IMG/VR virus record: IMGVR_UViG_3300033153_005053
Span: 1 to 23,843 of that record
Reading direction: 5' to 3' (one strand)
Origin: a virus
Length of the DNA: 23,843 bases
The position numbers and the translations under genes were made by a program. The notes beneath the pieces were generated by a model that was not told where the DNA came from, did not search any database, and was given only the letters and a program-made list of their open reading frames with translations. Shown here piece by piece: positions 7,668-22,644 of this stretch. The number at the start of each line of letters is the position of its first letter. Position 1 is the stretch's first letter.

Positions 7668-7675
7668 AGCACCAC

Positions 7676-8368
7676 CTAATCAGGTTGCCCACAAGCAGTG
7701 TATGCCATATGAACAGTTTCAATTACAGCATTAGCCGCATAAGTAGCCAGTTCAGCGGTAAGATTACGATTAATAATTATCATTATTTCATCGTGTGCCG
7801 TTAACGGATTATCAGTATCATCATAATCAATAACTGCATATGAAGCTTCAAACCCATGCAGAGTACCCGTACCTACCTGTGTGAAAGCAGTGGTTGCTAC
7901 AGTAGTATTTCCTCCACTAACATCTTCCCCTGCTGATTTAGTTCTGTAAGTAAGATCAAAATAAACATTATCATCTTCAGCCATAGTAGTAGCAGGGAAC
8001 CAGTGAATGTGTAAACTCATATCACTAGCACCATCCCAATCTTCAGGTGTGTGCCATCTAATGTATGCTTCTTCATTTTCAGCGTCAAAACCCAAACCAG
8101 TAGCAGTGCCCTCAATCACTTCATCAGGGGAGTTCTGCCTAAGCCCACCAAGGATATTTAAATCAGTGTGTTTCTCATAGCAGTTAGAAGAACTATTAAT
8201 CCATAACCCTGATGCACTATCCCAAGTAAGCACATCATTATCAACAGCAGTCATTTGTGTTTTTACATTAACTAAATCATTCAATGAAAATGGATGTTGT
8301 ATATCTCCAAAGACATAAAATGGAATTGCTAATCCTATTGCAATCAATACTACAATTAATTTCTTCAT
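7676..8368 (-). CDS. Exported protein with shared N-terminal module and phage-type beta domain
   Basis: 230 residues. Signal peptide at about 1-22 (MKKLIVVLIAIGLAIPFYVF), then the shared module HPFSLNDLVNVKTQMTAVD...VLTWDSASGLW. The remainder is beta-rich with EDWDGASDMSLHIHWFPAT and VYFDLTYRTKSAG, a pattern seen in phage tail or fibre proteins, where a 'H-x-H-W' strand follows a 'DG-S-D' turn. It ends with a Cys (TACGQPD) that could pair with Cys near residue 62. It lies eight bases upstream of the tail-fibre-like gene. Role: probably a fibre-like or surface protein; exact function unknown. Confidence 0.75.
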   Translation of the reverse strand: MKKLIVVLIAIGLAIPFYVFGDIQHPFSLNDLVNVKTQMTAVDNDVLTWDSASGLWINSSSNCYEKHTDLNILGGLRQNSPDEVIEGTATGLGFDAENEEAYIRWHTPEDWDGASDMSLHIHWFPATTMAEDDNVYFDLTYRTKSAGEDVSGGNTTVATTAFTQVGTGTLHGFEASYAVIDYDDTDNPLTAHDEIMIIINRNLTAELATYAANAVIETVHMAYTACGQPD

Positions 8369-8376
8369 ATTATCAC

Positions 8377-8730
8377 CTACGGCATAGTATCAGGAACAAC
8401 AGGTTCAACATCTTCATCCACATACTGATTGCTCATTGCCTTACCAGCAAGCTTAATAAGAGTAGCAACGGAAGTTTTAGCATTAGCAGGAAGGGAGTTG
8501 TAGCCATAACTAACACGGCTATCACCAGCCCTTTTACCAATGTCATCTAATACAATGCCATTAGCAGTTATTGTGGCATCTTCAATGGCAGTCATCCCAC
8601 GATCCCACTTAACAGTAATTACAATCTTTGTAATCTTGGTTGCATTTAAAGTTCTAACCTTAACCGCATAGGCAGTACCAGTTACGAACACTAACAGCGT
8701 GAGAGCAATAATAAACTTTTTCATTTTCAT
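8377..8730 (-). CDS. Small exported hypothetical protein
   Basis: 117 residues with a good Sec signal peptide (MKMKKFIIALTLLVFVTGTAYA, cleavage expected after AYA). The mature part starts VKVRTLNATKITKIVITVKW and is a mixed beta/alpha polypeptide ending in an acidic Pro-rich tail (EDVEPVVPDTMP). I do not recognise a family. A strong Shine-Dalgarno (AAGGAG) supports the start. It sits in the run of exported proteins and ends eight bases before the next one. Confidence 0.72.
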   Translation of the reverse strand: MKMKKFIIALTLLVFVTGTAYAVKVRTLNATKITKIVITVKWDRGMTAIEDATITANGIVLDDIGKRAGDSRVSYGYNSLPANAKTSVATLIKLAGKAMSNQYVDEDVEPVVPDTMP

Positions 8731-8736
8731 TTCTCC

Positions 8737-9846
8737 TTATGGTGTAGCAGTAGCCATTGTTTCCCATTGATAAGTATCACCAGTATTTTTCAAACAAACT
8801 TCAAATGTATCTGCAACACCAGCACCACCAGCGTCATACCACATTTGCCCTTTCATAGTAGCGTCACAAGTAGGTCTGCTTCCTGTATCACCAAGACCAA
8901 GCGAACCATTTATTCTTAACAAGTCATTATCAAACTCACCATAAATTAGAGGGGTATCAGTTGCTGTGTTATCAATATAAAGTTTATTTGATATTACTGT
9001 GCTTGCTGTAGATGGTCCTGCGTTTGATCCAATGATTATGTTGTCATTGGAACCATCTTCAACATTAGCACCGGACATATTCCCAAGGAAAATATTATTA
9101 TCGCCGTCTGAAAGTTCAGCAGTGTACCCCCCTGCCCGATACCCAATACCAATGTTACTGAGAGAACCACTTTGCATCCCAAGGTAATACAACACATCAT
9201 GCCCAATGCCTATGTTGTAATGATCGCCAGTACAAAGTGCCCCAAGTGCTTCGTTACCAATGCCGATGTTTCCGTCAGCATCGTAATTGCCATCAGTACA
9301 CCAACCATCCACCACAGCATTGTAGCCAATTCCTATATTGTCAGAACCGTCTTCTAACTTAGCTATTGCTCCTGTTCCAATCCCAATATTGCCACCACCT
9401 GTGCCATCAATAGACCTGCCAGTATTTTGCCCAATCAATAAGTTGTTTGTTCCCGAAAGAGTGCGTGGATCAGGAATGTTCTCCCCCAGCGAAATATTGT
9501 GTCCTGATTGATCGTACTGGAAGAGCAGTTCCCCATTTATATAAAGTGAACCGGGGAGATTGATAGAGCCAGCTTCAGGTATCGTGATAGTCGAATCCTT
9601 GATCGTGTCTCCAAGGGTTCCATCCCATAAAACAAGTGCATCATCTGTAGATGATACAGGACCAGAAATACCACCACCAACCGCACCATCTTCCCATAAC
9701 TTTGTAGTGTCATTCCATACGATGCCTTCACCATCAGATTGCTCCATTGTAGTTTTTACATTTGACAACTCATGCAAAGAAAGAAGTGGAGGTTGTGCAA
9801 ATGCCAAACTAGGAATCAGCAGTAAAGTTAAAATTAATTTCTTCAT
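8737..9846 (-). CDS. Exported YadA-head-like / tail-fibre-like repeat protein
   Basis: 369 residues. Signal peptide MKKLILTLLLIPSLAFAQ, then the shared module LLSLHELSNVKTTM...GIVWNDTTKLWED (about 21-53), then ISGPVSSTDDALVLWDGTLG, a linker common in phage fibres. Residues about 135-275 hold eight turns of a YadA-head-like repeat (NLLIG, NIGIG five times, NIFLG, NIIIG) with Gly-rich spacers. Next come NKLYIDNT...PLIYGEFDNDLLRING, a frequent cap to such repeats, and a C-terminal module with two cysteines (PTCDATMKGQMWYDAGG...FEVCLKN). The fold should be a trimeric left-handed beta-roll, usually seen in adhesins and phage fibres. As with its neighbours, an export signal on such a protein is odd. 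Confidence 0.82.
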   Translation of the reverse strand: MKKLILTLLLIPSLAFAQPPLLSLHELSNVKTTMEQSDGEGIVWNDTTKLWEDGAVGGGISGPVSSTDDALVLWDGTLGDTIKDSTITIPEAGSINLPGSLYINGELLFQYDQSGHNISLGENIPDPRTLSGTNNLLIGQNTGRSIDGTGGGNIGIGTGAIAKLEDGSDNIGIGYNAVVDGWCTDGNYDADGNIGIGNEALGALCTGDHYNIGIGHDVLYYLGMQSGSLSNIGIGYRAGGYTAELSDGDNNIFLGNMSGANVEDGSNDNIIIGSNAGPSTASTVISNKLYIDNTATDTPLIYGEFDNDLLRINGSLGLGDTGSRPTCDATMKGQMWYDAGGAGVADTFEVCLKNTGDTYQWETMATATP

Positions 9847-9848
9847 TG

Positions 9849-10331
9849 TTAATACTCCTTATGGCAATCAAGGCATAGCAAAGTAAAATCTGCATTCTGC
9901 CCTTCCTGTGCAGTGTATAATCTCAACATATTACTTTCACTATTATCAGTATGAACATCGTGGCAAGTGGAACATTTTATCTTCCCATCAAATAAAGGCA
10001 GTGTAGTAGGTATAGACTTTTCGGATGGTTCCATTCCATAAGGATGTGAAATTCCTAAATCAACTTTTATCAAAGTTCCAAGTTCGTTTTCTATTTCTAT
10101 ATCACCTTCCCGACTATGGCAGGAAGTACATAGCAATTCTTCATTAGCTTTTAAACCTACAAGTGTAATTTCATTTTCAATAATATGGCATACACCACAA
10201 CCACCATCGACATAGTGTGGTGTTTCCTTTTGCATAGTACGGTACATTTCAAAACTGAAATAAGTTAAACCAGCAAGTAGGATAATTCCGGTGCTTGCTA
10301 TCAATCCCTTTTTATATATTTTAGTATTCAT
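9849..10331 (-). CDS. Membrane-anchored tetraheme cytochrome c (doubled CxxCH type)
   Basis: 160 residues. An N-terminal hydrophobic segment (about 10-30, LIASTGIILLAGLTYFSF) would act as signal anchor, leaving the rest outside the cytoplasmic membrane. Four CxxCH heme-attachment motifs are visible: CGVCH (45-49), CTSCH (68-72), CSTCH (120-124) and CLDCH (153-157). The last pair matches the doubled-CxxCH arrangement (CSTCHDVHTDN...LLCLDCHK). Extra His residues (GISHPYG, CHDVH) could be distal heme ligands. By family it would carry electrons at the periplasmic face and would depend on the host's cytochrome c maturation system. It has its own Shine-Dalgarno (AAGGGGA) and lies in the middle of the exported-protein run. 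Partner and substrate are unknown. Confidence 0.9.
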   Translation of the reverse strand: MNTKIYKKGLIASTGIILLAGLTYFSFEMYRTMQKETPHYVDGGCGVCHIIENEITLVGLKANEELLCTSCHSREGDIEIENELGTLIKVDLGISHPYGMEPSEKSIPTTLPLFDGKIKCSTCHDVHTDNSESNMLRLYTAQEGQNADFTLLCLDCHKEY

Positions 10332-10340
10332 AATATCCCC

Positions 10341-11576
10341 TTATGGTATCACCATTCCACCAGTACCAATTATTGGATTTAAACTTATAGGAAAAAATTT
10401 ACTGATAGGATTCATACCACCACTAGCACCACCACCGTAAAAATGGAACCCAATATCTAACGCTCCTGAATCAAACACACCACTAATTTCTGTATGGCTA
10501 GTATCTAATCCAACAGATGAAGCTGAAATATCTGCCATATCAATAGCAGGAGATAAAGCACCTAAATGCCTTTCATCAAAAAGAGATTCAGCATAAGTAT
10601 CATCGTGTGTACCATATACAGGATCACTTGTAGAATTGTTGGCACCACTATTCCAATTTGTAGTTCCGTTATATGTTATGTTGTAATTATTTCTGCTATT
10701 GCCAGATGCGGTAATGTTTGTAGGGCAATTAGAAATAATGTTGTAATATATATCTGCATATATATTATTGGAATCTTTTATTCCAATAGTGGAAGCAACA
10801 TTATTACAATCTATCGTATTGTATTTTATTACTGATGTTCCTGCAATTCTTGTATCTATTCTTATACCAGTACCATTAACAAAAATATTATTCAGCACAT
10901 GAGTAAAGGATGCATTATCGGCATCATTAGTAACATATACTCCACCATAAGTAGTGCTTGCTCCGGTTAAATCAAAATAACTATTAGAAATAGTAAGTTC
11001 ATTTCTAATCGCTTCACCAAGACCAGCCCCATCAACAAAAGAAAAATATGCCCTACCTTTTGTATTTGTATCATCAAAATAATTCTGATCAATTATTAAG
11101 TTCACTTGCCTTCCAGAACTACTATTGATACAAGCCCCAGTAGCATACCCACAGTAACGATGATAAAATCCCTGCAATCGTGTTTGCACTGTAATAGGGG
11201 TAGTATTGCCAAACGAAAACTGGTGTCCATAAGTAGTATCAGGAGAACCATAACCAGTAATACATTCAGCAGAAGTATCCGCACCAATAGTATTATCACG
11301 GCAATCTGTTGTGTATATCCAATTATCAGGAGTACCATCAGAAAGCATTTGAGCATCATTAGCAGTAAAAGTAATAGTTCTCATAATTGTTGATTGTTCA
11401 AATTTGATAATTGCTCCCGCTTCTACAGTAACAGTGGTGCTAATATTTACGCTTGCAGTAAGAACATAAGTTTCACCTGATACCCATGTTTCAGGAACAG
11501 TGATAGTTCCACTTTTAGTTTCATAACCAAAAGCTAAAGATGGAAACAGCAAAAGTAAAATTAAAAATTTTTTCAC
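10341..11576 (-). CDS. Exported right-handed beta-helix protein, copy B
   Basis: 411 residues, starting at a GTG that overlaps the upstream stop (GTGA, 11576-11573). Signal peptide MKKFLILLLLFPSLAFGYE, then WVSGETYVLTASVNISTTV with 'VEAGAIIKF'. This 'y.l...i.v..g..LtI..G..Ikf' start is usual for secreted beta-helix proteins. Strand-turn repeats rich in Asn follow (NELTISNSYFDLT, VIKYNTIDCNN, IYYNIISNCPTN). The C-terminus contains ISGVFDSGALDIGFHFYGG and then the tail PISKFFPISLNPIIG. It is clearly paralogous to the adjacent upstream gene at both ends but diverged in the middle. It may bind or act on a polysaccharide; no catalytic site is evident. Confidence 0.8.
   Translation of the reverse strand: MKKFLILLLLFPSLAFGYETKSGTITVPETWVSGETYVLTASVNISTTVTVEAGAIIKFEQSTIMRTITFTANDAQMLSDGTPDNWIYTTDCRDNTIGADTSAECITGYGSPDTTYGHQFSFGNTTPITVQTRLQGFYHRYCGYATGACINSSSGRQVNLIIDQNYFDDTNTKGRAYFSFVDGAGLGEAIRNELTISNSYFDLTGASTTYGGVYVTNDADNASFTHVLNNIFVNGTGIRIDTRIAGTSVIKYNTIDCNNVASTIGIKDSNNIYADIYYNIISNCPTNITASGNSRNNYNITYNGTTNWNSGANNSTSDPVYGTHDDTYAESLFDERHLGALSPAIDMADISASSVGLDTSHTEISGVFDSGALDIGFHFYGGGASGGMNPISKFFPISLNPIIGTGGMVIP
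10345..10415 (-). repeat. Direct repeat coding the shared C-terminal tag (copy in beta-helix B)
   Basis: 71 bases encoding the last 23-24 residues of beta-helix protein B. By eye they differ at about nine positions from 11577-11647 in the neighbouring gene. The matching is much tighter than in the body of the two genes. Confidence 0.75.
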
Positions 11577-12865
11577 GGTATCACCATCGTGCCAGCACCA
11601 ATTATTGGATTTAAACTTATTGGGAAAAACTTACTGATAGGCTTCATAGCACTACCAGCACCAGCAGTAAAATAATGAAAACCTAAATCAAGAGTACCAC
11701 TATCATTCACCCCGTCATCAGTAGCGTGTTTACCATCAAGCCCTGCTAATGTTGCGGTAGTGCTTCCTGCATCAATAGCATTTGAAGAAACACCTAAATG
11801 ATAATCATCTGCCCATACAGGTGTGTATGTTCCAGCGTGTTCTTGAAAGTCTGGTGTGGTAGTTATTTCTGATGCTACTTTAACCCATGTAGCACTGTAA
11901 TCTGTTCCATTGTTGTAAGCTAAATTGTTGTAATGCTTTCCAGTAGGTATATCAAAAACAAGAGCATTAAATCCTGCTCCACACCCTTGTACAATGTTAT
12001 CTGAAATCTGTATATTAGGAATTGTTCCATGAGTATAGAAATAAAATCCAGTTCCTGTATGTCCTGCGTTATTACAAACAATAGTATTATTGTTTATAGT
12101 GAATGAAACATTTGCATTATCTCTGCTTTCCAAATATAAAAAATGGGCATCAGAAGATGATTCTGTTATGAACAAATTATTTTCAATTATAAAAATATCT
12201 TCAGTTCCAGCATAACGCATACCAAAATCCATTTGTCTAGCAGAGGTATCATCTCCAGTATAACTATCATGGATAATATTATTTTTAAATATAAAAGTAG
12301 TTACACCAGCATCAGGAGCAAGATTATGTGCTATTAAATAATTGGATGTACAAGCAAGGTCTTGAAAATCACGCACAATACTATTCTGCATATTAAATGT
12401 AAAGTTTGGATTAGCACTCATATAAAAAGAACTAACACCACCAACATATGAAAATTCAGTGTAGTTAATTGTAACACTTGGTTCAGTTGCTCCTGCTATA
12501 TTAACAACAGCAATATCACAATTTGTAACAGCAACATCATCACAAGACGCATGATCAGTTACATCTGCACCTACACTTTTATCAGCACATGAAGTCCAGT
12601 ACACAGGATTTGCTTGTGTGCCATTAACAGAGAGAGTATCATATACATTTATTCTTCTGCCTGATGCAATGCCTGTATTGAATATCTTTATTATTGCACC
12701 ATCTTGAATTGTTAAAGAGTTACCATCAGAAATAGTAAGGGCAACTTGAAGAAGGTATGTTTCTCCAGATACCCAAACTTCATCACCAATAATACTCCCC
12801 CCTTCAACTTCATAGCCAAAAGCTAAAGATGGAAACAGCAATAGTATAAGTAAAAGTTTTTTCAT
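11573..12865 (-). CDS. Exported right-handed beta-helix protein, copy A
   Basis: 430 residues from the ATG at 12865, which overlaps the upstream stop (ATGA). An in-frame start 12 codons farther upstream exists but would add a non-signal extension (residues before MKKLLLILLLF), so I rejected it. The signal peptide MKKLLLILLLFPSLAFGYE is almost the same as in copy B. It is followed by WVSGETYLLQVALTISDGNSLTIQDGAIIKI. The central region has beta-helix-like turns (FNMQNSIVRDF, IIENNLFITES, FTINNNTIVCNN, IQISDNIVQGC). The C-terminus is VNDSGTLDLGFHYFTAG plus the tail PISKFFPISLNPIIG. Tandem duplication with copy B is evident. Surface or extracellular carbohydrate binding is plausible but not shown. 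Confidence 0.8.
   Translation of the reverse strand: MKKLLLILLLFPSLAFGYEVEGGSIIGDEVWVSGETYLLQVALTISDGNSLTIQDGAIIKIFNTGIASGRRINVYDTLSVNGTQANPVYWTSCADKSVGADVTDHASCDDVAVTNCDIAVVNIAGATEPSVTINYTEFSYVGGVSSFYMSANPNFTFNMQNSIVRDFQDLACTSNYLIAHNLAPDAGVTTFIFKNNIIHDSYTGDDTSARQMDFGMRYAGTEDIFIIENNLFITESSSDAHFLYLESRDNANVSFTINNNTIVCNNAGHTGTGFYFYTHGTIPNIQISDNIVQGCGAGFNALVFDIPTGKHYNNLAYNNGTDYSATWVKVASEITTTPDFQEHAGTYTPVWADDYHLGVSSNAIDAGSTTATLAGLDGKHATDDGVNDSGTLDLGFHYFTAGAGSAMKPISKFFPISLNPIIGAGTMVIP
11577..11647 (-). repeat. Direct repeat coding the shared C-terminal tag (copy in beta-helix A)
   Basis: 71 bases encoding the conserved C-terminal tail of beta-helix protein A, the partner of 10345-10415. The most conserved run codes for FFPISLNPIIG. 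Confidence 0.75.
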
Positions 12866-13665
12866 TGTACCGTCACAGGTAATACAGCAGTTGAAAACCA
12901 AGCATCAGAAACCGCTTGTGCAAGGTGATCCTTAGAACCTCCACCCTCAAACAAAACATTTCTTACAACTTCAGAATCACCATTAGCATCTACTGCTTGG
13001 GATTCATAAATGTCGAAGTCTTTAGTGCTTCCTTTGAATTTAATGAGAGTAGAAAATTCAGCAGTGGTTCCATCCCACTCACCACTATCAGTATGGATAG
13101 CATGACCAGTGCTTTTTAACTCATGCCAGAAAGCAAGGTAAACAGTTTGTGTATAAGAATGAGTAGCCCAACCAGCAATGCTAGAAATTACATAGCTAAC
13201 AGAAGGACCACTAACACCAGAAGTAATGATAGCATTCACATTAGGATAGATAGAAGTGTAGGTAATAGTATCACCATCAATACTAATATTAGATGTATCA
13301 GCAGAAGGGTCAACAGCACTAAATTGTGAAGTCTCCTGCTCGAAATAATACACACCACCAAAACTAAAAGTGGTGCTTAACCCATCTCTGGTGTAGGTAA
13401 TGTCACCACTACCTTTATTCAATGACCATGCAATCGGTGCGGTAGTAACATCATAAGTAGTAGTATTATCAACTACAGCTTTGTTGCTCTTTTTCCAAGT
13501 ACCATCATTGTAATTTATACCATCACCTTTTATTGTGTAGGTAGGTGTGGTAGTAGTCCATTCATTAACAATAGTTTCTTGTGCAAAAGACTTCCCACAT
13601 AGGAACCCTATTACTAAAAAGAAACATATGAAAAAAAGGAATAGTTTATCCTGCACATTTAGCAT
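12862..13665 (-). CDS. Exported hypothetical beta-rich protein
   Basis: About 267 residues from ATG 13665 (MLNVQDKLFLFF). The Shine-Dalgarno AGGAAGG is placed correctly for this ATG, while an in-frame GTG three codons upstream overlaps it. Signal peptide with a long hydrophobic core ending GKSFAQE. The mature part has GDITYTRDGLSTTFSFGGVYYF, then ITYTSIYPNVNAIIT and a C-terminal FSTAVLPVTVQ. These resemble the 'Y-x-x-[IV]-YP-x-[IV]-x' and 'aa.yPVt.d' motifs of bacterial surface proteins, a weak similarity from memory. No enzyme motif. It is translationally coupled to the first beta-helix gene by an ATGA overlap. Confidence 0.72.
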   Translation of the reverse strand: MLNVQDKLFLFFICFFLVIGFLCGKSFAQETIVNEWTTTTPTYTIKGDGINYNDGTWKKSNKAVVDNTTTYDVTTAPIAWSLNKGSGDITYTRDGLSTTFSFGGVYYFEQETSQFSAVDPSADTSNISIDGDTITYTSIYPNVNAIITSGVSGPSVSYVISSIAGWATHSYTQTVYLAFWHELKSTGHAIHTDSGEWDGTTAEFSTLIKFKGSTKDFDIYESQAVDANGDSEVVRNVLFEGGGSKDHLAQAVSDAWFSTAVLPVTVQ

Positions 13666-13679
13666 AATAAACACCTTCC

Positions 13680-14072
13680 TTATGGAGCGGTATATTTAGG
13701 AGCGTATAAGGTAACCGTAGTAGATTCACCACTAGCACAAATTAAACTAATAGCGGCATTAGTAAAAGGGGAAAAGTTCATAGTCATATCAGCATAGATA
13801 GGCATATCAGTAATAGCGGCTGTACCACCAGTAAAATCTATAAAGGCAGTAGAAGAACCAGAATTGTAAATACTAAGTTCTCTGGTTACCATAGGTGCCC
13901 ATGTAATAGTAGTATTAGTATCGGCAACTGCTACAACAGTAAATTGAACAGCATTAGATGTAGGAGATTGTGCCCGTACTTCACCGGGGGGATAAGTACA
14001 ATATAAACCTAACCCAAGCATACAACCAGTTAGAACTACAACACCAAAGATTTTAAACAAATTTTTTTTCAT
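13680..14072 (-). CDS. Small exported beta-sandwich-like protein
   Basis: 130 residues with an N-terminal basic-hydrophobic leader (MKKNLFKIFGVVVLTGCMLG). VLTGC fits a lipobox, but VRAQS at about 32-36 is also a plausible signal peptidase I site, so lipoprotein or soluble export cannot be separated. The mature part is short beta strands with LSIYNSGSSTAFIDFTGGTA and ISLICASGESTTVTLYA, a pattern I associate with small phage decoration-like beta sandwiches. First of nine consecutive exported products, just after the sulfotransferase. Strong Shine-Dalgarno (GAGGAG). Confidence 0.72.
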   Translation of the reverse strand: MKKNLFKIFGVVVLTGCMLGLGLYCTYPPGEVRAQSPTSNAVQFTVVAVADTNTTITWAPMVTRELSIYNSGSSTAFIDFTGGTAAITDMPIYADMTMNFSPFTNAAISLICASGESTTVTLYAPKYTAP

Positions 14073-14077: not shown

Positions 14078-14662
14078 TTACTCCTCATAGTTAAATGCAA
14101 TAAGCATAGCCATAAGATAGCTATTTACTCTAGCAGTTAAAGCATCTGGAAATCTAGCTTTCCATGTTCCTATTTTACCATTGTTTGTTATATGCCGTCC
14201 ATGTATCTGTGTTTTCTTATCATGCTCCTTAAAACTGGTGAAAGTATCAGCAATCTTTTTGTTTTCTTTAATTGAATGTTTAACTGCAATGTTATTAGCC
14301 TGTTCTTCAGATAAATCTGCTCTAACTAATTCAGCTATCCGCTTCACTAGCTGTGCTTCATTTCCCCCAAAGTAATCTTCATATCTTATCAGGTGATGCT
14401 GACCACTAAAGTATCGTGCCTGTAGTAGCTGTAAATGCCTCTTACGCTGTACAAATAAAGTAATGAAGGCTTCCTCTAGGGTTATGTCAAAAGCACCAGC
14501 ATAGGAGCATATAGCATCCCGTGGATCACGGTAAGTTGCTAATGCTATCATGTTATTAGCAGGGGTATAGAAACCATGCACTTTAGTTGTATTACCAAAC
14601 TCTTTAGCAACTTGCCACACAAAGGTAGAGCCAGCCCGTTCCATTCCAGTTACTACAAACAT
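14078..14662 (-). CDS. PAPS-dependent sulfotransferase-like protein
   Basis: About 194 residues. Starting at ATG 14662 gives MFVVTGMERAGSTFVW and the same TAATG overlap used elsewhere in this operon; an in-frame GTG at 14668 would add two residues. The 5'-phosphosulfate-binding loop GMERAGSTF (about 6-14), the 3'-phosphate motif YRDPRDAICS (about 44-53, equal to RxPxDxxxS) and the C-terminal GKIGTWKARF (GxxGxWK type) are all present. By family it transfers sulfate from PAPS to a sugar or other acceptor in the cytoplasm. It is shorter than typical sulfotransferases (about 250-300 aa), with little between the conserved blocks. Last gene of the glycan cassette; a sulfated glycan is the likely product. 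Confidence 0.85.
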   Translation of the reverse strand: MFVVTGMERAGSTFVWQVAKEFGNTTKVHGFYTPANNMIALATYRDPRDAICSYAGAFDITLEEAFITLFVQRKRHLQLLQARYFSGQHHLIRYEDYFGGNEAQLVKRIAELVRADLSEEQANNIAVKHSIKENKKIADTFTSFKEHDKKTQIHGRHITNNGKIGTWKARFPDALTARVNSYLMAMLIAFNYEE

Positions 14663-15498
14663 TACCACCGTGCCCCAAGCATATAGTAATTATTCTTAGG
14701 GGTAGCCTGTAAAAATGTTAGCTTAGTTTTTGCAAAGCTGGGGTGGTCAATGTCGAGCATTTGAAAGTACCGCATATTATCATAGTTTCCAAAATCCTTT
14801 TGGAAAGCTACTTGCATATACTTAATGCCGTTTAGTTTCTGGAAGACTGCATTTCGTAATTCAATAGGTGCTTCACTCAGTGACCAGTTAGCAATTAAAG
14901 CGGCATTAATATCTAACAGTGTTTTCTCTTCATGCATCTGCTCCACATCAGTCACATACCACACACCATCAACACCGCAAGACTCTAGGTAATACTTCTG
15001 TAGTGCAGAGGTAATAGGAGTGTCAATAAGAATGTATTGCCCTGTAAAACCTAATGCATGAATCAACCTACACATACAACCGTAGCCCCCACCAAACTCA
15101 AATACCATTTCTAAATTATGAACATAATCTTTCATGTAGCTTTCCATAACATATATGCTATACACTTGGTGTATCAAGTTAGGTGAAGTGCTAGGATCAA
15201 TACGGCTTCTAGTCGGTGCCCCAACATTACACTCATGTAAAACTGACTGCCAGCGTTTCCATTGTGAACTTGCTTTTAGTAATTCATATTCTTTTCTAAT
15301 GTAAGGAGTATCAGCAGGAACAAACATGGTGTATTGAATAACATCCCATTGCAGAAACTTAGATATGTCACTATGCATAATGTGTTGCTGGATGTGGGCA
15401 TTATTAGTTTCCCAAATACGGTCACTACCATCAGTCTTAGCATCTAGGATTTGTACAGTGTTTACTAATGTTTCTTCTAGTTCCTGCATCCTTTTCAT
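14662..15498 (-). CDS. Putative sugar O-methyltransferase-like SAM enzyme
   Basis: 278 residues. A class I SAM-binding loop is visible at about 132-140 (VFEFGGGYG), followed by GQYILIDTP as the acidic strand-2 region. The long N-terminal part (SQWKRWQSVLHECNVGAPTRS, NLIHQVYSIYVMESYM) and the overall length resemble the putative sugar O-methyltransferase family found in glycan clusters. It overlaps the preceding glycosyltransferase (ATGA) and the sulfotransferase (TAATG). It probably methylates the sugar made by the cassette. Substrate and position unknown. Confidence 0.78.
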   Translation of the reverse strand: MKRMQELEETLVNTVQILDAKTDGSDRIWETNNAHIQQHIMHSDISKFLQWDVIQYTMFVPADTPYIRKEYELLKASSQWKRWQSVLHECNVGAPTRSRIDPSTSPNLIHQVYSIYVMESYMKDYVHNLEMVFEFGGGYGCMCRLIHALGFTGQYILIDTPITSALQKYYLESCGVDGVWYVTDVEQMHEEKTLLDINAALIANWSLSEAPIELRNAVFQKLNGIKYMQVAFQKDFGNYDNMRYFQMLDIDHPSFAKTKLTFLQATPKNNYYMLGARW

Positions 15499-16454
15499 AA
15501 TAGCCCTACTTTCTTAAACACCGTATTAAACCGCTGTTCCCAAGTGTGATCTTTTATACATCTGTTATACCCAGCTTCTCTAATTGCATTTCTGGCTTCT
15601 GTGTTCTCTGCATAGTATTTGCAAATGTCAATTAACTCAGTAAGGTTATTAGGATCAAATGTAACTACTTCTTTTCCAATTTCAAACAAGGTTCCTAAAT
15701 CTTCAAACTCTTCTGATAATGATAGCCCCGCCAGTGCAGTAACCTCGAAATCCCTTAACCTAATTTGCTTCATGTGTGTATTAGATATTTCAGCATTCCC
15801 AATTCCTCTAGGAATAATATTCACAGCAGTTTCACTTACCATCTTAAACATGGTAGGAAAAGACACACCGCTTGACATTGAAATAGATAGGTTACCTTGA
15901 TCCCGTAAGTACAACATTAAATTTGAACGGTAGCCATATATCCTGCCAACCAACCCCACATCAAAATGTGGTCTAACACTCATATCAGGTATATAGAAAT
16001 CAGGGTTAATTGCTAGTGGGGTATACAAAGCATTAGCCCCCAACTGTGCAAAGTATTCTAGTGTGCATCTATCAACCGTCCATGTAACATCAAACTGATT
16101 AGCAATTAATGTGTTAGCCCTTTTAAACGAACCAACATTATTACAGCCAAAGTTCATGCAATACACACCACTACTTTTTATTTCTTCAACAGCCCATGTA
16201 GTAGTATTAACATCAGAAAGATAACCAAAGAAAAGATCAAAAGGTTTTTCTGCATGATTCTTTTTAAACTGTTCGACCATCTCTACATTCATATCACTTT
16301 TATCAGTAATTTTCCAATCAGGATTATATTCACTATACCCGTAATCACCCCAATCAAACCAAACAACATCAAACATATTTTGTAGCGTCCAGATTAGGTT
16401 AGGTTTTTCCCAATCAGTATCATGGAGTGCAACAAATATTCTTAGCTTCTTCAT
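15495..16454 (-). CDS. CgeB-like glycosyltransferase (GT-B, second copy)
   Basis: 319 residues with GT-B organisation: an N-terminal Rossmann half (KKLRIFVALHDTDW... DLFFGYLSDVNTT), a linker at about 150-165 (FYIPDMSVRPHFDVGLVG) and a C-terminal half with IRLRDFEVTALAGLSLSEEF, IDICKYYAEN and AIREAGYNRCIKDHTWEQRF (about 230-312). The last blocks match the CgeB-like 'R.fE..a.G......f..l' and 'G......HtW..R' signatures. The usual Glu-rich sugar-donor motif is only partly kept (RDFEVTALAGLSL). Adjacent to a related glycosyltransferase through a TAATG overlap. Donor and acceptor unknown. Confidence 0.82.
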   Translation of the reverse strand: MKKLRIFVALHDTDWEKPNLIWTLQNMFDVVWFDWGDYGYSEYNPDWKITDKSDMNVEMVEQFKKNHAEKPFDLFFGYLSDVNTTTWAVEEIKSSGVYCMNFGCNNVGSFKRANTLIANQFDVTWTVDRCTLEYFAQLGANALYTPLAINPDFYIPDMSVRPHFDVGLVGRIYGYRSNLMLYLRDQGNLSISMSSGVSFPTMFKMVSETAVNIIPRGIGNAEISNTHMKQIRLRDFEVTALAGLSLSEEFEDLGTLFEIGKEVVTFDPNNLTELIDICKYYAENTEARNAIREAGYNRCIKDHTWEQRFNTVFKKVGLL

Positions 16455-17404
16455 TAGTATCCTCTAGTGTGGTCATAATAAACATGAGGGGTATGAGGGG
16501 AATCAACAACCCCGCCCCACTGGTAGGAACTCTGCACCCTGTTAAAAGATAAATCTTTGAATATAGTTTTTAACCGTGCTTCCCAAGTATGCCCCCCAAT
16601 AGTTTGGTGACCGTTTCTAGCAATCTCTTCCCGTGCCTCATCATGGCTAAGGTAATGCCGCACAATATTAACCATATCAATTTTGTCTCGGTACATTTCA
16701 AGATGCACCCCCGGTACAAAATCCTGTGCAACAAACTTATTATAGTTTGTAACTAAGAAACTTCCACACGCTAAAGTTTCTGGTATCCTTAACTGCATAC
16801 CTCTATCAAAAGAACCGTAGTTAAAAACTATCTTGCTCCTGCAAGTCATATCACGCAGTTCATCTAGGTAGGCAGAGCCAACAACAATGTTAGCCCCCGG
16901 CATCTGCTGTTTTAGGTATCCTAAGTATTCCCCTCTTTGGCTATGCATTGCCCCGATAAATAGCACATCAATATCTTTCTCACACTTCACTTTACTAAAC
17001 TGCTCAATGTCAACACCACTAGGAAGGTAAGAAGCTGATTGCCCGAACAGTTGCCCCATCACTGGTGCATTCTCTGCAATCACTGTGTACCACTTATCAA
17101 AGTGCCCTGCATGATAATTACAATCCCTGAATGCGTGTTCATATCTTAGATCATCTGGATACCACATTACTTTAGGGTAAGGTAGCTTTGATAAGTCCTC
17201 GACATTAACACCGCTTCCTTTCCACATCAAGAGTGCATCAGCCTCATCAGGGAAATGCATCTGACCATGATCCCGCCTGAAATCATAATCTCTCATGATG
17301 TTACAACCAAGATTTTCTAATGCTTTAAAGATGAAGTTACCCGTGCCCCAACCTTCATTGCTAAACCGTGCAGTGATCAATACAATATTTCTAAATTCCA
17401 TCAT
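16454..17404 (-). CDS. CgeB-like glycosyltransferase (GT-B, first copy)
   Basis: 316 residues. The N-terminal half contains NEGWGTGNFIFKALENLG, then LLMWKGSGV and VMWYPDDL. The linker and C-terminal half have DIDVLFIGAMHSQR, IVFNYGSFDRG, LRIPETLACGSFLVTN (about 205-220) and IARNGHQTIGGHTWEARL. This is a good match to the CgeB-like glycosyltransferase pattern 'R.pE.laCG.fl.t......F..g.h' and 'G....H.W..R'. Two consecutive Met codons open the gene (17404, 17401); the Shine-Dalgarno AGGGGG suits the second slightly better. It follows the GT4 gene by six bases. A cytoplasmic sugar transferase acting in the cassette. Confidence 0.85.
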   Translation of the reverse strand: MMEFRNIVLITARFSNEGWGTGNFIFKALENLGCNIMRDYDFRRDHGQMHFPDEADALLMWKGSGVNVEDLSKLPYPKVMWYPDDLRYEHAFRDCNYHAGHFDKWYTVIAENAPVMGQLFGQSASYLPSGVDIEQFSKVKCEKDIDVLFIGAMHSQRGEYLGYLKQQMPGANIVVGSAYLDELRDMTCRSKIVFNYGSFDRGMQLRIPETLACGSFLVTNYNKFVAQDFVPGVHLEMYRDKIDMVNIVRHYLSHDEAREEIARNGHQTIGGHTWEARLKTIFKDLSFNRVQSSYQWGGVVDSPHTPHVYYDHTRGY

Positions 17405-17410
17405 TGCCCC

Positions 17411-18529
17411 CTACGCTACAGAACCAGTAACAACATCAACAAAGTGATCACCGTTTTTATCCCAATTAAAACTAGCTTCAACTAATTCTAAAGATGCTGT
17501 TTGCATTTCACGCATCTCACCTACATTTTTACAAATCTCAATAATAGCATTTGCATATTGCTTAATATCAGAATCATAAGCAACCGTATGGATATTAGGA
17601 AGGTTAAGTTTATTAGCAGGAGGAAGTACCACACCATTTTCCCCATTCACAAACTCTGACATAGGGGCGGCATCGTTTGTAATAATTACTAAACCACTGG
17701 CAAGGGCTTCAAGAAAAGTTAACCCCAACCCTTCCCACATAGAAGGGAGGATTGCCACATCAGAATAGGCATAATAGTTTAGTAATTTATCACGCTCAAT
17801 AGTTCCTATAATGCCTCTAATCTTACTGGTAAGCTGGACCATTCTAACATCATCAGTATGTTGCTGTGCAGTAAACAACATATTAGCATTTACTTTATTT
17901 AATAATTCTGGCTCACTTGATTGTGCTAGTTTAAAAGCGGCAATAGCATCTGGTGTGCCCCGCCTATTGTGAACACCACCCCAACCACCGGGATGAAAGA
18001 ACCTTACTTCATTATCAGTTCTATCCACGCTCTCTCTAGCTTTTACAAACTCATCTAGGTCAGCACCCCAAGGAACATGATAGGCAGTTCTTGGGAAGTC
18101 ACTACGCACAAAGTCATGGCAAGTTTTAGTAGGGCACACGATAGCATCACACGGTTCATAGTACCCCCGCTGTGAACGATCATAGGCTTCACGCATAATT
18201 ACATTCACAACCCTGCACCCTGCCTCTTTAATTACTTCAGCTAGGTAAGGCTCATTCTGCCACTGCTCTTCTACCATCACTACGGTTTCTAGCTTATTGT
18301 CTTTAATCCACGCTTGCACAATTTCAGCAGGGATTATGTACTCAGGGTAACTAGTTAAATTCTTGTGTGTCCATTCACCACTATTCTCAATCTTCTTTAC
18401 TCCATGAACAAAGCCAGCCCGTGCCATCACAAAAACATTATGATTATGTTTTTCAAGTGCAGTAATTATGTTCTTGCCAACATACGCTTGACCTCTTGCA
18501 AACCATAAACTAATTAGCCCAACATTCAT
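17411..18529 (-). CDS. GT4-family glycosyltransferase
   Basis: 372 residues of a typical GT-B, group 1 enzyme. N-terminal glycine-containing start (GLISLWFARGQAYVGKNI), central DAIVCPTKTCHDFV and HVPWGADLDEF, then donor-domain FFHPGGWGGVHNRRGTPDAIAAF, IGTIERDKLLNYYAYSDVAILPS and the E-x7-E motif EGLGLTFLEALASGLVIITND (E266 and E274). All key blocks are intact. Retaining transfer from a nucleotide sugar is expected. Overlaps the small upstream gene by one base (TAATG). Confidence 0.9.
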   Translation of the reverse strand: MNVGLISLWFARGQAYVGKNIITALEKHNHNVFVMARAGFVHGVKKIENSGEWTHKNLTSYPEYIIPAEIVQAWIKDNKLETVVMVEEQWQNEPYLAEVIKEAGCRVVNVIMREAYDRSQRGYYEPCDAIVCPTKTCHDFVRSDFPRTAYHVPWGADLDEFVKARESVDRTDNEVRFFHPGGWGGVHNRRGTPDAIAAFKLAQSSEPELLNKVNANMLFTAQQHTDDVRMVQLTSKIRGIIGTIERDKLLNYYAYSDVAILPSMWEGLGLTFLEALASGLVIITNDAAPMSEFVNGENGVVLPPANKLNLPNIHTVAYDSDIKQYANAIIEICKNVGEMREMQTASLELVEASFNWDKNGDHFVDVVTGSVA

Positions 18530-18891
18530 TATTTCTTTCCCTTCTTTCTAGTAGTTTTTACAGCGGCTTTCTTAGCATCCTGTACATCTTCTGTAGTAGG
18601 AAAGTTTTCTTCATCCTCTTTTTCATCAGGATCAGGCGTAGCCGAAAACCTACTTAGGCTTTCTACCTTGCCCCCTATTACAGATTCAACAAACTCATAA
18701 TTTAAATTAGGAAGCGGCTGTGAGGTTCCTTTGTAGTCAACCTTCCTCCATTCATTAGGACTATTATGCAACCAGAATAAAGCTAAAGTGTCTGGCACTT
18801 CATAGACTTCACCAGCAGTTACTTCCACCATCATCTTTTGTGTACTCACCCCAATAGGCACACCGGGAAGCCCCATAAATCTTAACTTCAT
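18529..18891 (-). CDS. Small hypothetical protein, possible head-associated
   Basis: 120 residues. The N-terminal ~55 residues (MKLRFMGLPGVPIGVSTQKM, VEVTAGEVYEVPDTLALFWL) look like a small beta domain of the kind found as short proteins near phage head genes, with 'G..yeVpe..A..l' before a 'W'. The C-terminal ~35 residues are disordered: acidic (DPDEKEDEEN) then strongly basic (KTTRKKGKK). It sits between two glycosyltransferases with one-base overlaps on both sides, so it is expressed with them. It might be an acceptor or virion protein rather than an enzyme. Function unknown. Confidence 0.7.
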   Translation of the reverse strand: MKLRFMGLPGVPIGVSTQKMMVEVTAGEVYEVPDTLALFWLHNSPNEWRKVDYKGTSQPLPNLNYEFVESVIGGKVESLSRFSATPDPDEKEDEENFPTTEDVQDAKKAAVKTTRKKGKK

Positions 18892-20135
18892 TAGCTTGTC
18901 TCCTTCTCTTGAATTTTAGAAGTTTCCATTTTAATACTTTCTAGCATCCTTGTAGCATCCATCCTTAACGCACTATTTTCTATAAGGTGGATGTTCTGAT
19001 TCATACGGTCATCATCTTTCCCTAAAAATCCCCGCACTACACCAGCATGATACAGTGCTTTATCTGGTTCGTTCTGTTCACTATAGCAAGTCATTAGAAT
19101 ATCAGAAGGATACCAGCTATAAATTCGACCATCTAGAAAATAAGCAGTCACAGGCATATCATTTTCAACAGTCATGCGGTAAGATATTTCAGCCCAATGA
19201 ATAGCTTCCTTCAGCTTCCCTTCTTTAAAAGCAATGTATGCCATATAGAAATATGGTTCTGCTCTATCGTACCTAGCAACCATAGCTTGTAATAGGTACT
19301 GCCTAGCTTCAACAGGACTATCCATTTTAGTATATAGAAGGGAGGCTACCGTAATACACGCTTGTGCTAATAGATCACCATCAGCTTTAGCATCAACAGC
19401 TTTCTTTAAATACTTAATACCTTTTTCAAAATCACCAGCATCAGCATATGTATTACCTAAATAAAATAAATCCCTTGGGTTATCAGAGTTACCTTTCTCT
19501 TCAAGCTGTTTGTATAACCCCGGCACATTCATATCTGTACGCTGTTTGTTTCTCCATTCCTTACGCTTCTTTGGCATCTTATGTTTGAATTTTAATTCAG
19601 GTGTAACGAACCGGGAATTTTTCTTGTAAGCTTTACGCTTTTCATCATCAGTGAAATCAATGAAGTTGTGTACATCTTTCATCCACCTGATACCTTCACC
19701 TGTACGCCACATAATCGGACGGGGAAAAATGTGCTTTGGAATGTTGCCCTCATCTTCCATCATCAAAATGTAAGGCTGTAGTATTTTGTGAGGCTCACTA
19801 TTCTGCTCAAGGAAATTATTTAGGAATGGTAACCCTTCAGGACTAAGCACCTCATGACCATCAGGCATTAGTATCACATCAACATCCAGTGCTTCACATT
19901 TTTCTGATATGAAATTTCGAGGTTTACTAAATGAGTTTTCCCAAGTGAAGTAATAAATCTTATCGGTATACTTTCGGCAAATCTCTTCTGTGTTGTCATC
20001 AGTAGAATCATCAATACCAATTACTAATTCAGAGTACAGCGGCTTGTCTTCATACCAGATGGATTTGATTACTTCTTCGATTGTCTCGGCTTCATCTTTT
20101 AGGACTAGTGCTAATGCTAACTTTGCTCTTGCCAT
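18891..20135 (-). CDS. GT2 glycosyltransferase with C-terminal TPR repeats
   Basis: 414 residues. GT2 fold at about 5-200: ALALVLKDEAETIEEVIKSI, VIGIDDSTDDNTEE (about 38-51), YYFTWENSFSKPRNFISEK and VDVILMPDGHEVLSPEG (about 85-101). The usual metal-binding DxD/DADE position reads D92-G93-H94-E95. The C-terminal half (about 215-400) has TPR-like helical pairs: DLFYLGNTYADAGDFEKGIKYLKKAV, YFYMAYIAFKEGKLKEAIHWA, YSEQNEPDKALYHAG. GT2-TPR fusions occur in S- or O-glycosyltransferases acting on proteins as well as sugars. First gene of the minus-strand glycan operon, with Shine-Dalgarno AGAAAGGAAG. Confidence 0.88.
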   Translation of the reverse strand: MARAKLALALVLKDEAETIEEVIKSIWYEDKPLYSELVIGIDDSTDDNTEEICRKYTDKIYYFTWENSFSKPRNFISEKCEALDVDVILMPDGHEVLSPEGLPFLNNFLEQNSEPHKILQPYILMMEDEGNIPKHIFPRPIMWRTGEGIRWMKDVHNFIDFTDDEKRKAYKKNSRFVTPELKFKHKMPKKRKEWRNKQRTDMNVPGLYKQLEEKGNSDNPRDLFYLGNTYADAGDFEKGIKYLKKAVDAKADGDLLAQACITVASLLYTKMDSPVEARQYLLQAMVARYDRAEPYFYMAYIAFKEGKLKEAIHWAEISYRMTVENDMPVTAYFLDGRIYSWYPSDILMTCYSEQNEPDKALYHAGVVRGFLGKDDDRMNQNIHLIENSALRMDATRMLESIKMETSKIQEKETS

Positions 20136-20316: not shown

Positions 20317-20345
20317 TTGACAAGCTTTAGCAAATGCATTATCTT
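20317..20345 (+). promoter_or_regulatory. Sigma70-like promoter for the plus-strand gene pair
   Basis: A perfect -35 TTGACA (20317-20322), a 17-base spacer and -10 TATCTT (20340-20345, four of six). It lies about 45 bases upstream of the plus-strand start codon. The spacer contains one copy of the 11-bp direct repeat, so a protein bound there would block RNA polymerase. Confidence 0.7.
20326..20336. repeat. 11-bp direct repeat TTTAGCAAATG, copy inside promoter spacer
   Basis: Second exact copy of the repeat at 20224-20234. It falls entirely between the -35 and -10 of the plus-strand promoter, a classic location for a repressor operator. Confidence 0.5.
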
Positions 20346-20390
20346 ATGTACATGAACACACACACTAACAACGAAACAGGGGGAAACGAA

Positions 20391-20693
20391 ATGAAAAAGC
20401 AAAACGGTTTCACGATGGGTAGCGGCTGTTACACCTGTGAGTGTTGTGGCAAGCGTACCAGAGATACTGGAATTGGAGAAGCTGATCTTGAAATCTGTGC
20501 CGATTGTTACGAAATCGGTGGTGATCATAACCACCACACCGACAACCATGATAACGGCTTTGACCTCGACACTGGTAAAGCGGCTACCGATTACATGACC
20601 GGGAAAGCTTGCAGATTCTGCCAGTGGGAAAAAGATGGCAAGGATGTGGAATTTGAAATGCTGAAGGAAGCTAACCCCAACTACAAAAAGTAA
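20391..20693 (+). CDS. Small double-CxxC zinc-binding protein
   Basis: 100 residues from ATG 20391, which follows AGGGGGAAACGAA; longer in-frame starts upstream lack a ribosome-binding site and overlap the transcription start. C16-x2-C19 (TCECCGKRTRDTG) and C36-x2-C39 (EICADCYE) form a probable zinc ribbon, followed by His/Asp-rich GDHNHHTDNHDN and a third CRFC pair. The 'CxxCGkxTRxTG...lCxxCye' layout is that of a small phage protein family I have seen without known function. Opposite in strand to all structural genes and with its own promoter, so it may be expressed at a different time. It may bind nucleic acid or another protein; unproven. Confidence 0.8.
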   Translation: MKKQNGFTMGSGCYTCECCGKRTRDTGIGEADLEICADCYEIGGDHNHHTDNHDNGFDLDTGKAATDYMTGKACRFCQWEKDGKDVEFEMLKEANPNYKK

Positions 20694-20742: not shown

Positions 20743-21069
20743 ATGGGAAACACGGTAGATAGAATTTGCGGAATACAGAAGAACCCCGAAATCACCGTAG
20801 GTGGAATAAAGATGGAACAGGTTCTGCACATTGCCTCTGGCAAGACGGTGTATGTAGTCAACATCTGCAACCTGATGGATGCCATCACCCCCAATTGGCT
20901 GGATGAGTGGAACAAGCAGGATGAGCATAACAAGGTAGTGGATGCATGGATTGAAAACACCCCTGCTCTGCACTACGGTAGGTGCCGTGAAGACTTCTTC
21001 ATCCATGAAGCGGTAAGGCTTTGTGTTGAGGCTGGCAAAGGTGTGGTGGTAGTCGAGGACTACAGCTAG
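20743..21069 (+). CDS. Small hypothetical protein, plus strand
   Basis: 108 residues, ATG 20743 preceded by AAAAGGAGAAACGAAA. The sequence runs MGNTVDRICGIQKNPEITVG, VLHIASGKTVYVVNICNLMD, ITPNWLDEWNKQDEHNKVVD and HEAVRLCVEAGKGVVVVEDY. It is a soluble alpha/beta protein with four isolated cysteines that do not form a CxxC pair. I do not recognise a family. It probably shares a transcript with the upstream zinc protein and is bracketed by two almost identical GAAA hairpins. The convergent capsid operon ends just beyond it. Confidence 0.72.
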   Translation: MGNTVDRICGIQKNPEITVGGIKMEQVLHIASGKTVYVVNICNLMDAITPNWLDEWNKQDEHNKVVDAWIENTPALHYGRCREDFFIHEAVRLCVEAGKGVVVVEDYS

Positions 21070-21081: not shown

Positions 21082-21112
21082 AAAAAAATAGGGGGAGCCG
21101 AAAGGCTCCCCC
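21082..21112 (-). terminator. Strong rho-independent terminator after the capsid gene
   Basis: On the minus strand, stem GGGGGAGCC-TTTC-GGCTCCCCC (21112-21091) is followed by TATTTTTTTG, an excellent U tract, 18 bases after the capsid stop codon. Read from the plus strand the same hairpin (GAAA loop) follows the small plus-strand gene, so it may also stop or stabilise that transcript. Confidence 0.88.
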
Positions 21113-21129
21113 TATCACTGTTACAGATT

Positions 21130-22644
21130 TTACAGGTTGATGATATTACCAACCGTGTTGTCAGCAGTTCCACGCACACTCTGGAAATCGTGCCGTGCCA
21201 TAGCAACCACCTTCTGCATATCAGTCTCAATATCCCTTTCCGACTCAACCGTATACTTCCTACGGTCAGCAAGAATGAACTGATTAGTATTAACCAGAAC
21301 GATGGTGGTATCAATATTCACAGAGGTAGCCCCACCGCTAACACCAGAGGAGTTTAAATCTTCCCTGATACCAGTAGTAACGATGATGGGAATGCCCTGA
21401 TACTTAGCCATCTCACCACTGTGAACGATAGCTTTAGGACCGTACTTGTCAACCGTCTGGATGTTAGGAAGCTGAAGGAACTTCATGTAACCAGCCGCAC
21501 CCGTAACCCAAGCTAACTCATTAGTATTGATCCCGTACTTGCCAAGCTTTGCCCGTAGGTTCCTTAGCACATACTCACCATTAGCCGTGCTACCAGAAGT
21601 GGCAAACAGATCATTAGCATCAACACTCATGCTACCAATACCCGTAGCAATCTTACGGTAACCATCCCATGCTCTCATAGCAGAGGTAGCCGCCATAGAA
21701 CCACCAGCTTGATCAGTATCATCAACGGTGCCAGCAGTATCACCATTAACAATGTTGAACTCAAGGGCATCAGCCATAGCGATAGAAAGACTATCCTTCA
21801 CAAAAGGCATGATGCTAACAATCGAATCCTCTTCCAGTTCACTGGTGAAGTAAACTCGACCACCAAGCTTAGTAGCCGTGAAGGTTAGATTAGCAGTACC
21901 GGGGGTAGACTCAGTAGGCTTAGTTCCACTGGAAGCGGTAGACTCAGCAACCTTGTAGATGTAAGCATCAGCCGCCGTCATCGGGAAGATGTAAGGGTTG
22001 TTAGGCATATTAATCCTACGGTGAAGATTAGCAACCTTACCCTGTAGACGCACCTTCTTGATCAGTTCAGAACTGAAACCCGTAGGCACCCACTCATCAC
22101 CAGTAGCAGAACCAGTAGAGTACAGAGCCTTAGCAAACTCAGCCGTATCATGACGGAAAGCCTGATAGGTTTTTAGGGAACGAGGATCACACTTCAGCAC
22201 CTTCGACATAATATAAATGTCATCAGCACGGCTCTGCATCTCCGCAACAAAATCTTCACTGTACACAGTGCCGCCCTTCACATAAGACTTGGCACCGTCA
22301 AACATAGCCTTCTCAAAGGTATCAATCTTACTTCCACCTTCAACATGAATCACAGGCTTCTCAACATTAAACTCACCCTTACGGTGTAAATGCACTTGAG
22401 CCTTAGTCATATCTTCAACACGCTTCAGAAGTTCTTCCCGTCCAGCCTTAGAATCCTTAACAGCGGAAGCAAGACCAGCAACCATTTCCATCAGATGCTC
22501 ACGGGTAAGTTCACCAGCAGGGGTAGCTTCAACCTTTTCCTTAGTAACTTCAGGAGCCGCTTCCGCAACCTCAACCTTAGTGCCACACTCAGCACAAAAC
22601 TTAACACCCTCAATTAATTCATTTTCACATTTCTTACATTTCAT
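21130..22644 (-). CDS. HK97-fold major capsid protein with N-terminal zinc ribbon
   Basis: 504 residues. Residues 1-21 form a zinc-ribbon knuckle pair (C3-x2-C6 and C17-x2-C20: CKKCENELIEGVKFCAECG), followed by an Ala/Glu/Lys-rich coiled-coil-like region (about 30-90, LMEMVAGLASAVKDSKAGREELLKRVEDM) that would be the delta/scaffold segment removed by the protease. The capsid domain follows: GDEWVPTGFSSELIKKVRLQGKVANLHRRI (N-arm), a beta region ANLTFTATKLGGRVYFTSELEEDS, then AWVTGAAGYMKFLQLPNI, GIPIIVTTGI, and a C-terminal FILADRRKYTVESERDIETDMQ. Two features fit the HK97-fold family: the 'W.P..fs..l...vr....v..l...i.m' start and the 'G.P.i.t' strand. Shine-Dalgarno GAGGAG. The zinc ribbon is unusual in this position. 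Confidence 0.93.
   Translation of the reverse strand: MKCKKCENELIEGVKFCAECGTKVEVAEAAPEVTKEKVEATPAGELTREHLMEMVAGLASAVKDSKAGREELLKRVEDMTKAQVHLHRKGEFNVEKPVIHVEGGSKIDTFEKAMFDGAKSYVKGGTVYSEDFVAEMQSRADDIYIMSKVLKCDPRSLKTYQAFRHDTAEFAKALYSTGSATGDEWVPTGFSSELIKKVRLQGKVANLHRRINMPNNPYIFPMTAADAYIYKVAESTASSGTKPTESTPGTANLTFTATKLGGRVYFTSELEEDSIVSIMPFVKDSLSIAMADALEFNIVNGDTAGTVDDTDQAGGSMAATSAMRAWDGYRKIATGIGSMSVDANDLFATSGSTANGEYVLRNLRAKLGKYGINTNELAWVTGAAGYMKFLQLPNIQTVDKYGPKAIVHSGEMAKYQGIPIIVTTGIREDLNSSGVSGGATSVNIDTTIVLVNTNQFILADRRKYTVESERDIETDMQKVVAMARHDFQSVRGTADNTVGNIINL

Follow-up and report, generated by a model that had tools for sequence, protein, structure and literature searches.

The window analysed here (23,843 b) is a single IMG/VR virus record, IMGVR_UViG_3300033153_005053, and a fragment of a tailed-phage genome, and the system under study is a seven-gene operon on its minus strand (14078-20135) whose products could build an O-methylated, sulfated glycan. 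Read along the minus strand from the right end, the window encodes a cut open reading frame (ORF), a prohead protease (PF04586, 83.8 bits), an HK97-type major capsid protein (21130-22644; PF05065, phrog_10, TIGR01554 65.6 bits), the operon, nine ORFs spanning 14072 to 6417, a 127-aa protein, a head-tail adaptor (phrog_442), a neck/tail-completion protein (phrog_5) and a tail terminator (PF23818).

The operon opens with a glycosyltransferase family 2 (GT2) enzyme carrying tetratricopeptide repeats (TPR; 18891-20135, 414 aa). It continues with a 120-aa protein without a family match (18529-18891), a GT4 glycosyltransferase of the GT-B type (17411-18529; PF00534, 52.1 bits), two PF13524 (Glyco_trans_1_2) glycosyltransferases (16454-17404, 68.3 bits, and 15495-16454, 60.9 bits), a putative NanM-like sugar O-methyltransferase (14662-15498; TIGR04371, 34.4 bits, E 1.6e-8) and a compact sulfotransferase of the type that uses 3'-phosphoadenosine-5'-phosphosulfate (PAPS) (14078-14668; PF00685, 34.8 bits, cut-off 22). 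Five of the seven proteins belong to Pfam families above the cut-off. These matches bear out the four glycosyltransferases of three families (PF00535, PF00534 and PF13524 twice) and the PAPS-type sulfotransferase named in a first-pass annotation of this DNA, and they support its placement of enzymes for a methylated, sulfated glycan next to the capsid gene. Its O-methyltransferase-like protein agrees with the TIGR04371 match, but that match is under the cut-off of 44 and there is no Pfam match. The one- to four-base overlaps it described hold at four junctions (1, 1, 1 and 4 b), whereas a 6-b gap separates the GT4 gene from the first PF13524 gene, and the sulfotransferase overlaps its neighbour by 7 b with a GTG start (196 aa) or by 1 b with the in-frame ATG at 14662 (194 aa). 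The genes it listed are in place, but the list left out the 120-aa gene and the stretch between operon and capsid gene described below.

The GT2-TPR protein (PF00535, 27.9 bits, cut-off 23.3; TPR_2, PF07719, 34.8 bits) is a predicted protein-priming glycosyltransferase of the SunS/ThuS/GmaR type. A profile of the glycosyltransferase domains of eight phage homologues, searched against the PDB, ranks GmaR (2e-25), SunS (2.2e-15) and 7msk (4.7e-10), which is ThuS by its PDB title, as the top three solved glycosyltransferases, with TarS behind them (2.6e-6); searched alone, the window protein finds GmaR as its sole glycosyltransferase match (6.8e-9). Its predicted structure (predicted local distance difference test score, pLDDT, 81.6; predicted template modelling score 0.70), a GT2 domain with TPR helices, is closest in fold to SunS and ThuS, both by Foldseek (7e-18 to 1e-15, next glycosyltransferase 1.6e-7) and by VIA (Z 24.0/23.4/22.8 vs 17.8 for the next row). 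VIA-align places it on SunS with Z 24.0 across 274 residues at 3.0 A, at an identity to SunS/ThuS of only 16-19%. SunS, which comes from prophage SPbeta, and ThuS are titled glycosin S-glycosyltransferases in the PDB, while GmaR transfers N-acetylglucosamine to flagellin, its TPR part being proposed to recognise the protein substrate (PMC9638930). All three likewise have a GT2 domain followed by TPR-type helices, and all three glycosylate proteins or peptides. The GT2-TPR protein is closest to such enzymes in sequence profile and in modelled fold, and this likeness favours a protein or a peptide as its acceptor. Neither a tblastn search of 50,697 phage records nor an IMG/VR scan with this GT2 enzyme returned anything useful.

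Relatives of the phage were collected with a two-sequence capsid profile, which gave 52 IMG/VR loci and six contigs from metagenome-assembled genomes, most of the records being fragments; the six contigs are of mixed phyla, and no host is therefore named. Eight other capsid-relative phages carry a strong GT2-TPR homologue, located 395-689 b downstream of the capsid gene (L015/L018, L016/L017, L020, L021, L023, L032, L035 and L041), compared with 983 b by the same measure in the window. At least 1500 b of sequence follows the capsid gene in 48 rows, window included, and 16 of these have a GT2-profile match within 3 kb. After removal of four repeated-contig rows (L055, L056, L057 and L063) and two apparent second copies (L017 and L018), the count is 11 of 42 loci, eight of them strong (the window, L015, L016, L020, L021, L023, L032 and L035) and three weak (L003, L011 and L029); L041, also strong, has just 1070 b downstream and lies outside this count.

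Every strong, non-truncated GT2-TPR enzyme has a GT-B partner, either fused to it as a GT2-TPR-GTB protein (L015, L023, L032 and L035) or encoded downstream, as in the window and in L016, L020 and L021, where a GT4 gene lies further on. The GT4 homologues that follow GT2-TPR in L016/L017, L020 and L021 are 27% identical to the window enzyme. Locus L021/L056 repeats the gene order GT2, GT4, PF13524, PF13524 and additionally carries GT9 and radical SAM genes; the glycosyltransferase at 16454-17404 has a 26% identical homologue there, and L056 ends with a homologue of the one at 15495-16454 (45% identity). The 120-aa protein shows a weak likeness to a 131-aa protein that precedes the head-tail genes in L015 (L015:14146-14541; BLASTP E 0.005 in a single comparison). 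The gene that follows the L015 fusion (L015:13103-14149) has, by eye, an HPr-kinase-type look (GTGKT) and no Pfam match. A tblastn search with the fusion enzyme itself gave nothing useful.

The remaining enzymes are those expected to extend and cap a chain. The GT4 enzyme is a predicted chain extender, and a PEP-CTERM/exosortase reading of its matches (TIGR03088) was dropped as far below the cut-off. The methyltransferase, a predicted capping enzyme, partially matches genes of cyanophages (34-36%), and in two of these records the gene is annotated as a methyltransferase. The Pfam alignment of the sulfotransferase, which scores 31.5 bits in a search of its own record, spans residues 45-184 only. 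By eye, the protein carries ERAGST near the N-terminus (missed by the regular expression), KVH (KxH), RDPRDAICSY (RDPRDxxCSY) and NGKIGTWK (NGxxGxWK), which we take to be, respectively, the phosphosulfate loop, the catalytic Lys/His, the 3'-phosphate site and the C-terminal GxxGxWK of cytosolic sulfotransferases. Its C-terminal half has weak PDB matches of the right kind (retinol dehydratase, 0.023; estrogen sulfotransferase, 0.66). PDB searches with the methyltransferase and the 16454-17404 glycosyltransferase, and IMG/VR scans with the methyltransferase and the sulfotransferase, yielded nothing useful; neither did a tblastn search of the 50,697 phage records with the sulfotransferase, which did not recover those of the cyanophages S-SRM01, S-SKS1 and S-SCSM1. 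No gene supplying sugar nucleotides, PAPS or S-adenosylmethionine (SAM) was seen in the window, including no adenosine-5'-phosphosulfate (APS) kinase, so these donors must come from the host, and the earlier description of a complete-looking cassette is not supported.

Hydropathy analysis found no membrane segment in any operon enzyme, which fits soluble protein glycosylation. The cassette might instead modify a host surface glycan (lipopolysaccharide core, O-antigen or capsule), in the manner of lysogenic conversion or superinfection exclusion. Surface polysaccharide loci do contain soluble GT4, PF13524 and GT9 enzymes, sugar O-methyltransferases and sulfotransferases, which counts for this explanation, as does a weak GtrB match of the GT2 enzyme (phrog_841, 17.1 bits). 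That match, however, is all that was found of a gtr-type O-antigen conversion system, which pairs a GtrA flippase with a membrane-bound GtrB: the family searches revealed neither a flippase nor a polymerase nor a polyprenyl-linked GtrA/GtrB pair, and the operon proteins lack membrane segments by hydropathy. The SunS-like GT2 with its TPR, the position within the late virion gene block and the recurrence after the capsid gene also speak against a host glycan, and we regard this explanation as distinctly unlikely. Hypermodification of phage DNA bases by glycosylation and sulfation is highly improbable. PMC10829341 cites reports of such systems in phages, and PMC12619734 cites DNA-glycosylating phage glycosyltransferases, but no base-hydroxylating or nucleotide-modifying enzyme was found among the genes searched in the window, itself a fragment, and the TPR/SunS-like architecture speaks for protein as the acceptor.

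Comparable gene sets occur in phages outside this capsid family. Locus L060, found with the GT2 profile, is a contig of 40.9 kb on which PHROG matches identify the terminase, portal, scaffold, major head protein and head-tail adaptor, and its capsid protein is unrelated, being unmatched by the window capsid profile. There the major capsid gene is followed after 59 b by a GT2-TPR-GTB gene and then by genes for a methyltransferase, a GT-A-like protein, an MptE-like protein, a sulfotransferase (56.3 bits), a GT2 enzyme, small proteins and the head-tail adaptor; upstream lie a GT9 enzyme, another methyltransferase and an APS kinase (PF01583, 63.9 bits). A scan with the L060 GT2 recovered its own contig only, and tblastn with its sulfotransferase nothing useful. 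Locus L088, a T4-like contig with a tail sheath gene, encodes between its fibre-like and sheath genes two glycosyltransferases (one under the cut-off), an FkbM methyltransferase (100.5 bits), a sulfotransferase (PF13469, 65.7 bits) and an APS kinase (48 bits). Used as a query, the L088 sulfotransferase found those of cyanophages, which are 26-31% identical to it. In the cultured cyanophage S-SRM01 the sulfotransferase gene lies two genes before a GT2-methyltransferase fusion, close to an epimerase and near tail-fibre and RCC1-like proteins; in S-SKS1 and S-SCSM1 sulfotransferases are annotated with no obvious annotated glycan set nearby. Given these annotations and the sulfotransferases named in published work, the first-pass view that a phage-coded sulfation enzyme is uncommon was too strong.

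APS kinase genes neighbour the sulfotransferases in L088 (L088:10994-11410, 1 kb apart) and L060 (L060:3392-3880, about 11 kb apart), which suggests that some phage cysC-like genes may serve sulfation rather than sulfate assimilation. Two of nine sulfotransferase-bearing records have an APS kinase, against none of 64 sulfotransferase-negative records, a count that omits L038 and L051; with p about 0.014, calculated by hand, post hoc and over fragments of unequal length, this is a hint of an association. None of six sulfotransferase-bearing records from the annotated collection has an APS kinase (six of ten matching records; three copies in RefSeq and another record were left out), so phage-supplied PAPS appears to be the exception.

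The capsid gene and the operon are separated by 994 b that hold two small plus-strand genes (20352-20693 and 20743-21069) and a strong minus-strand terminator-like hairpin 3' of the capsid gene (21087-21116; a 13-pair stem, then TTTTT). Co-transcription was rejected, since the hairpin and the plus-strand genes intervene; capsid gene and operon are probably not one transcript. Taken as a whole, the promoter and terminator scan found sites no more numerous than in shuffles. Upstream of the first plus-strand gene, which encodes CxxC pairs, lies the region's best sigma-70-like site (20317-20345). The first 24 residues of the capsid protein form a zinc-ribbon-like CxxC...CxxC stretch (PF13240, 22.4 bits, cut-off 25; phrog_2546 also matches).

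Downstream, the nine consecutive minus-strand ORFs (6417-14072) encode proteins with N-terminal signal-peptide-like or anchor segments, among them fibre-like proteins, a predicted beta-helix-like protein and a tetraheme cytochrome; eight of the nine pass a hydropathy threshold of 1.6, and bh411 peaks at 1.38. Lying so close to the cassette, these proteins are a serious alternative set of acceptors. They would be glycosylated in the cytoplasm before Sec export, and the glycan would then end up on exported fibres or the envelope of the host and not on the capsid. The first of them begins 5 b after the sulfotransferase gene, three share a fibre-like N-terminal stretch (L-x-[DE]-L-x-x-V-K-T), and in L060 and L023 the cassette is followed by LamG-like proteins (the L060 match being under the cut-off). 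However, no homologue of any exported protein was found in the capsid-relative loci, though GT2-TPR recurs there after the capsid gene, and that search showed no homology between the LamG proteins of L060 and L023 and those of the window. We consider exported acceptors unlikely. Export signals on fibre-like proteins are odd for a tailed phage. Among the nine, the ORF at 8737-9846 has a tail-spike PHROG match, those at 10341-11576 and 11573-12901 have a common C-terminal ISKFFPISLNPIIG, and that at 13680-14072 has a signal peptide with, by eye, a lipobox-like LTGC, possibly marking a phage-coded lipoprotein. The ORF at 9849-10331, inside the late gene block, encodes a protein of 160 aa that has an N-terminal anchor and four haem motifs of the form CxxCH (PF09699, PF14522). 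It would be unusual for a phage to encode a multihaem cytochrome, and tblastn found no relative of this one in the 50,697 phage records.

Three things together favour a phage protein that is glycosylated directly, in the cytoplasm: the enzymes are soluble, the predicted starter is a SunS/GmaR-like TPR protein, and phages of two capsid families have that protein encoded after the capsid gene. We give an even chance to the proposal that, within the host cytoplasm, the operon enzymes assemble a short oligosaccharide, O-methylated and sulfated, straight on a protein encoded by the phage. GT2-TPR would attach the first sugar to an acceptor side chain, with its TPR part holding the acceptor; the soluble GT4 and the two PF13524 enzymes would lengthen the chain, the NanM-like enzyme would methylate it with host SAM, and the sulfotransferase would sulfate it with host PAPS. 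Catalysis, the order of the steps, the acceptor and the sugars are here what we infer. The likeliest acceptor would be a virion protein, either the major capsid protein or a different one, and next the signal-peptide-bearing fibre-like proteins directly downstream. The earlier suggestion of a phage protein as acceptor gains from the likeness to SunS, ThuS and GmaR and from the GT2-TPR genes after the capsid gene in relatives. A more specific and only tentative version is that an uncultivated tailed-phage lineage glycosylates its own capsid protein by means of a SunS/GmaR-like TPR enzyme whose gene directly follows that of the capsid protein, and that some members, the window phage and L060, complete the chain with methyl and sulfate, L060 with its own APS kinase for PAPS.

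Several observations weigh against the proposed glycosylation of a phage protein. The DxD motif of GmaR and SunS (DAD) is DGH in eight of eight aligned phage proteins and in L060. Its first Asp is conserved, and DxH occurs in polypeptide N-acetylgalactosamine transferases, so that the enzyme may well be active; the GT2-TPR protein is accordingly likened to SunS, ThuS and GmaR and not claimed as a member. The methyltransferase, scoring below its TIGR04371 cut-off, is likely but not certain in identity, and the sulfotransferase model, made without an alignment, is too poor to use (pLDDT 39.7), its fold assignment resting on Pfam and motifs. Two plus-strand genes and the terminator-like hairpin part the capsid gene from the operon, and capsid, fibre and exported proteins are all candidate acceptors. 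With 31 of 42 capsid loci lacking a GT2-TPR gene nearby, the enzyme is an optional neighbour of the capsid gene and not a fixed one. Whether related phages keep the sulfotransferase with the glycosyltransferases, a check proposed in the first-pass annotation, has a divided answer: none of the 50 other capsid-relative records has a sulfotransferase over the cut-off (one, G001, has a sub-threshold match), the window being alone among the 51 searched, but L060, with its unrelated capsid, combines GT2-TPR, methyltransferase and sulfotransferase, and two further sets are tail-adjacent. Among the capsid relatives, sulfation is thus not a shared property.

Phage-coded glycosyltransferases for capsid glycans are likewise found in Mycobacterium phages such as Che8, where they are predicted or reported to glycosylate the capsid protein, with glycosylation of capsid and tail tube (PMC12619734, PMC11256854). 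Their host group differs from that of the window phage, their glycosyltransferase genes lie near the genome 3' end (PMC11256854), and the available text of these articles mentions neither a sulfotransferase nor a TPR-linked GT2. Unlike SunS, ThuS and GmaR, the window enzyme has DGH for DAD and is encoded after a phage capsid gene and ahead of extension, methylation and sulfation enzymes. Phage sulfotransferase genes are already known (PMC8290583, PMC10580990 and PMC10829341), including those of OM43 phages (PMC10580990), and their biological function remains unclear according to PMC10580990. The cyanophage enzymes of S-SRM01, S-SKS1 and S-SCSM1 are also phage-coded, but of the Sulfotransfer_3 type and about 260-280 aa long, against 196 aa in the window. 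No report of a sulfated phage virion glycan was found in the open-licence literature; virion glycosylation and phage sulfotransferases are each known, and their combination appears to be a new variation.

Phage sulfotransferases and APS kinases are usually classed as auxiliary metabolic genes of unclear role. Their presence near capsid or tail genes, grouped with a glycosyltransferase of the protein-modifying type, would give them a concrete role, the decoration of virions with charged sugars. If this is true, a sulfated coat could alter particle charge, adsorption, stability or recognition by host defences, and glycobiology would gain soluble enzymes that glycosylate protein without a lipid carrier.

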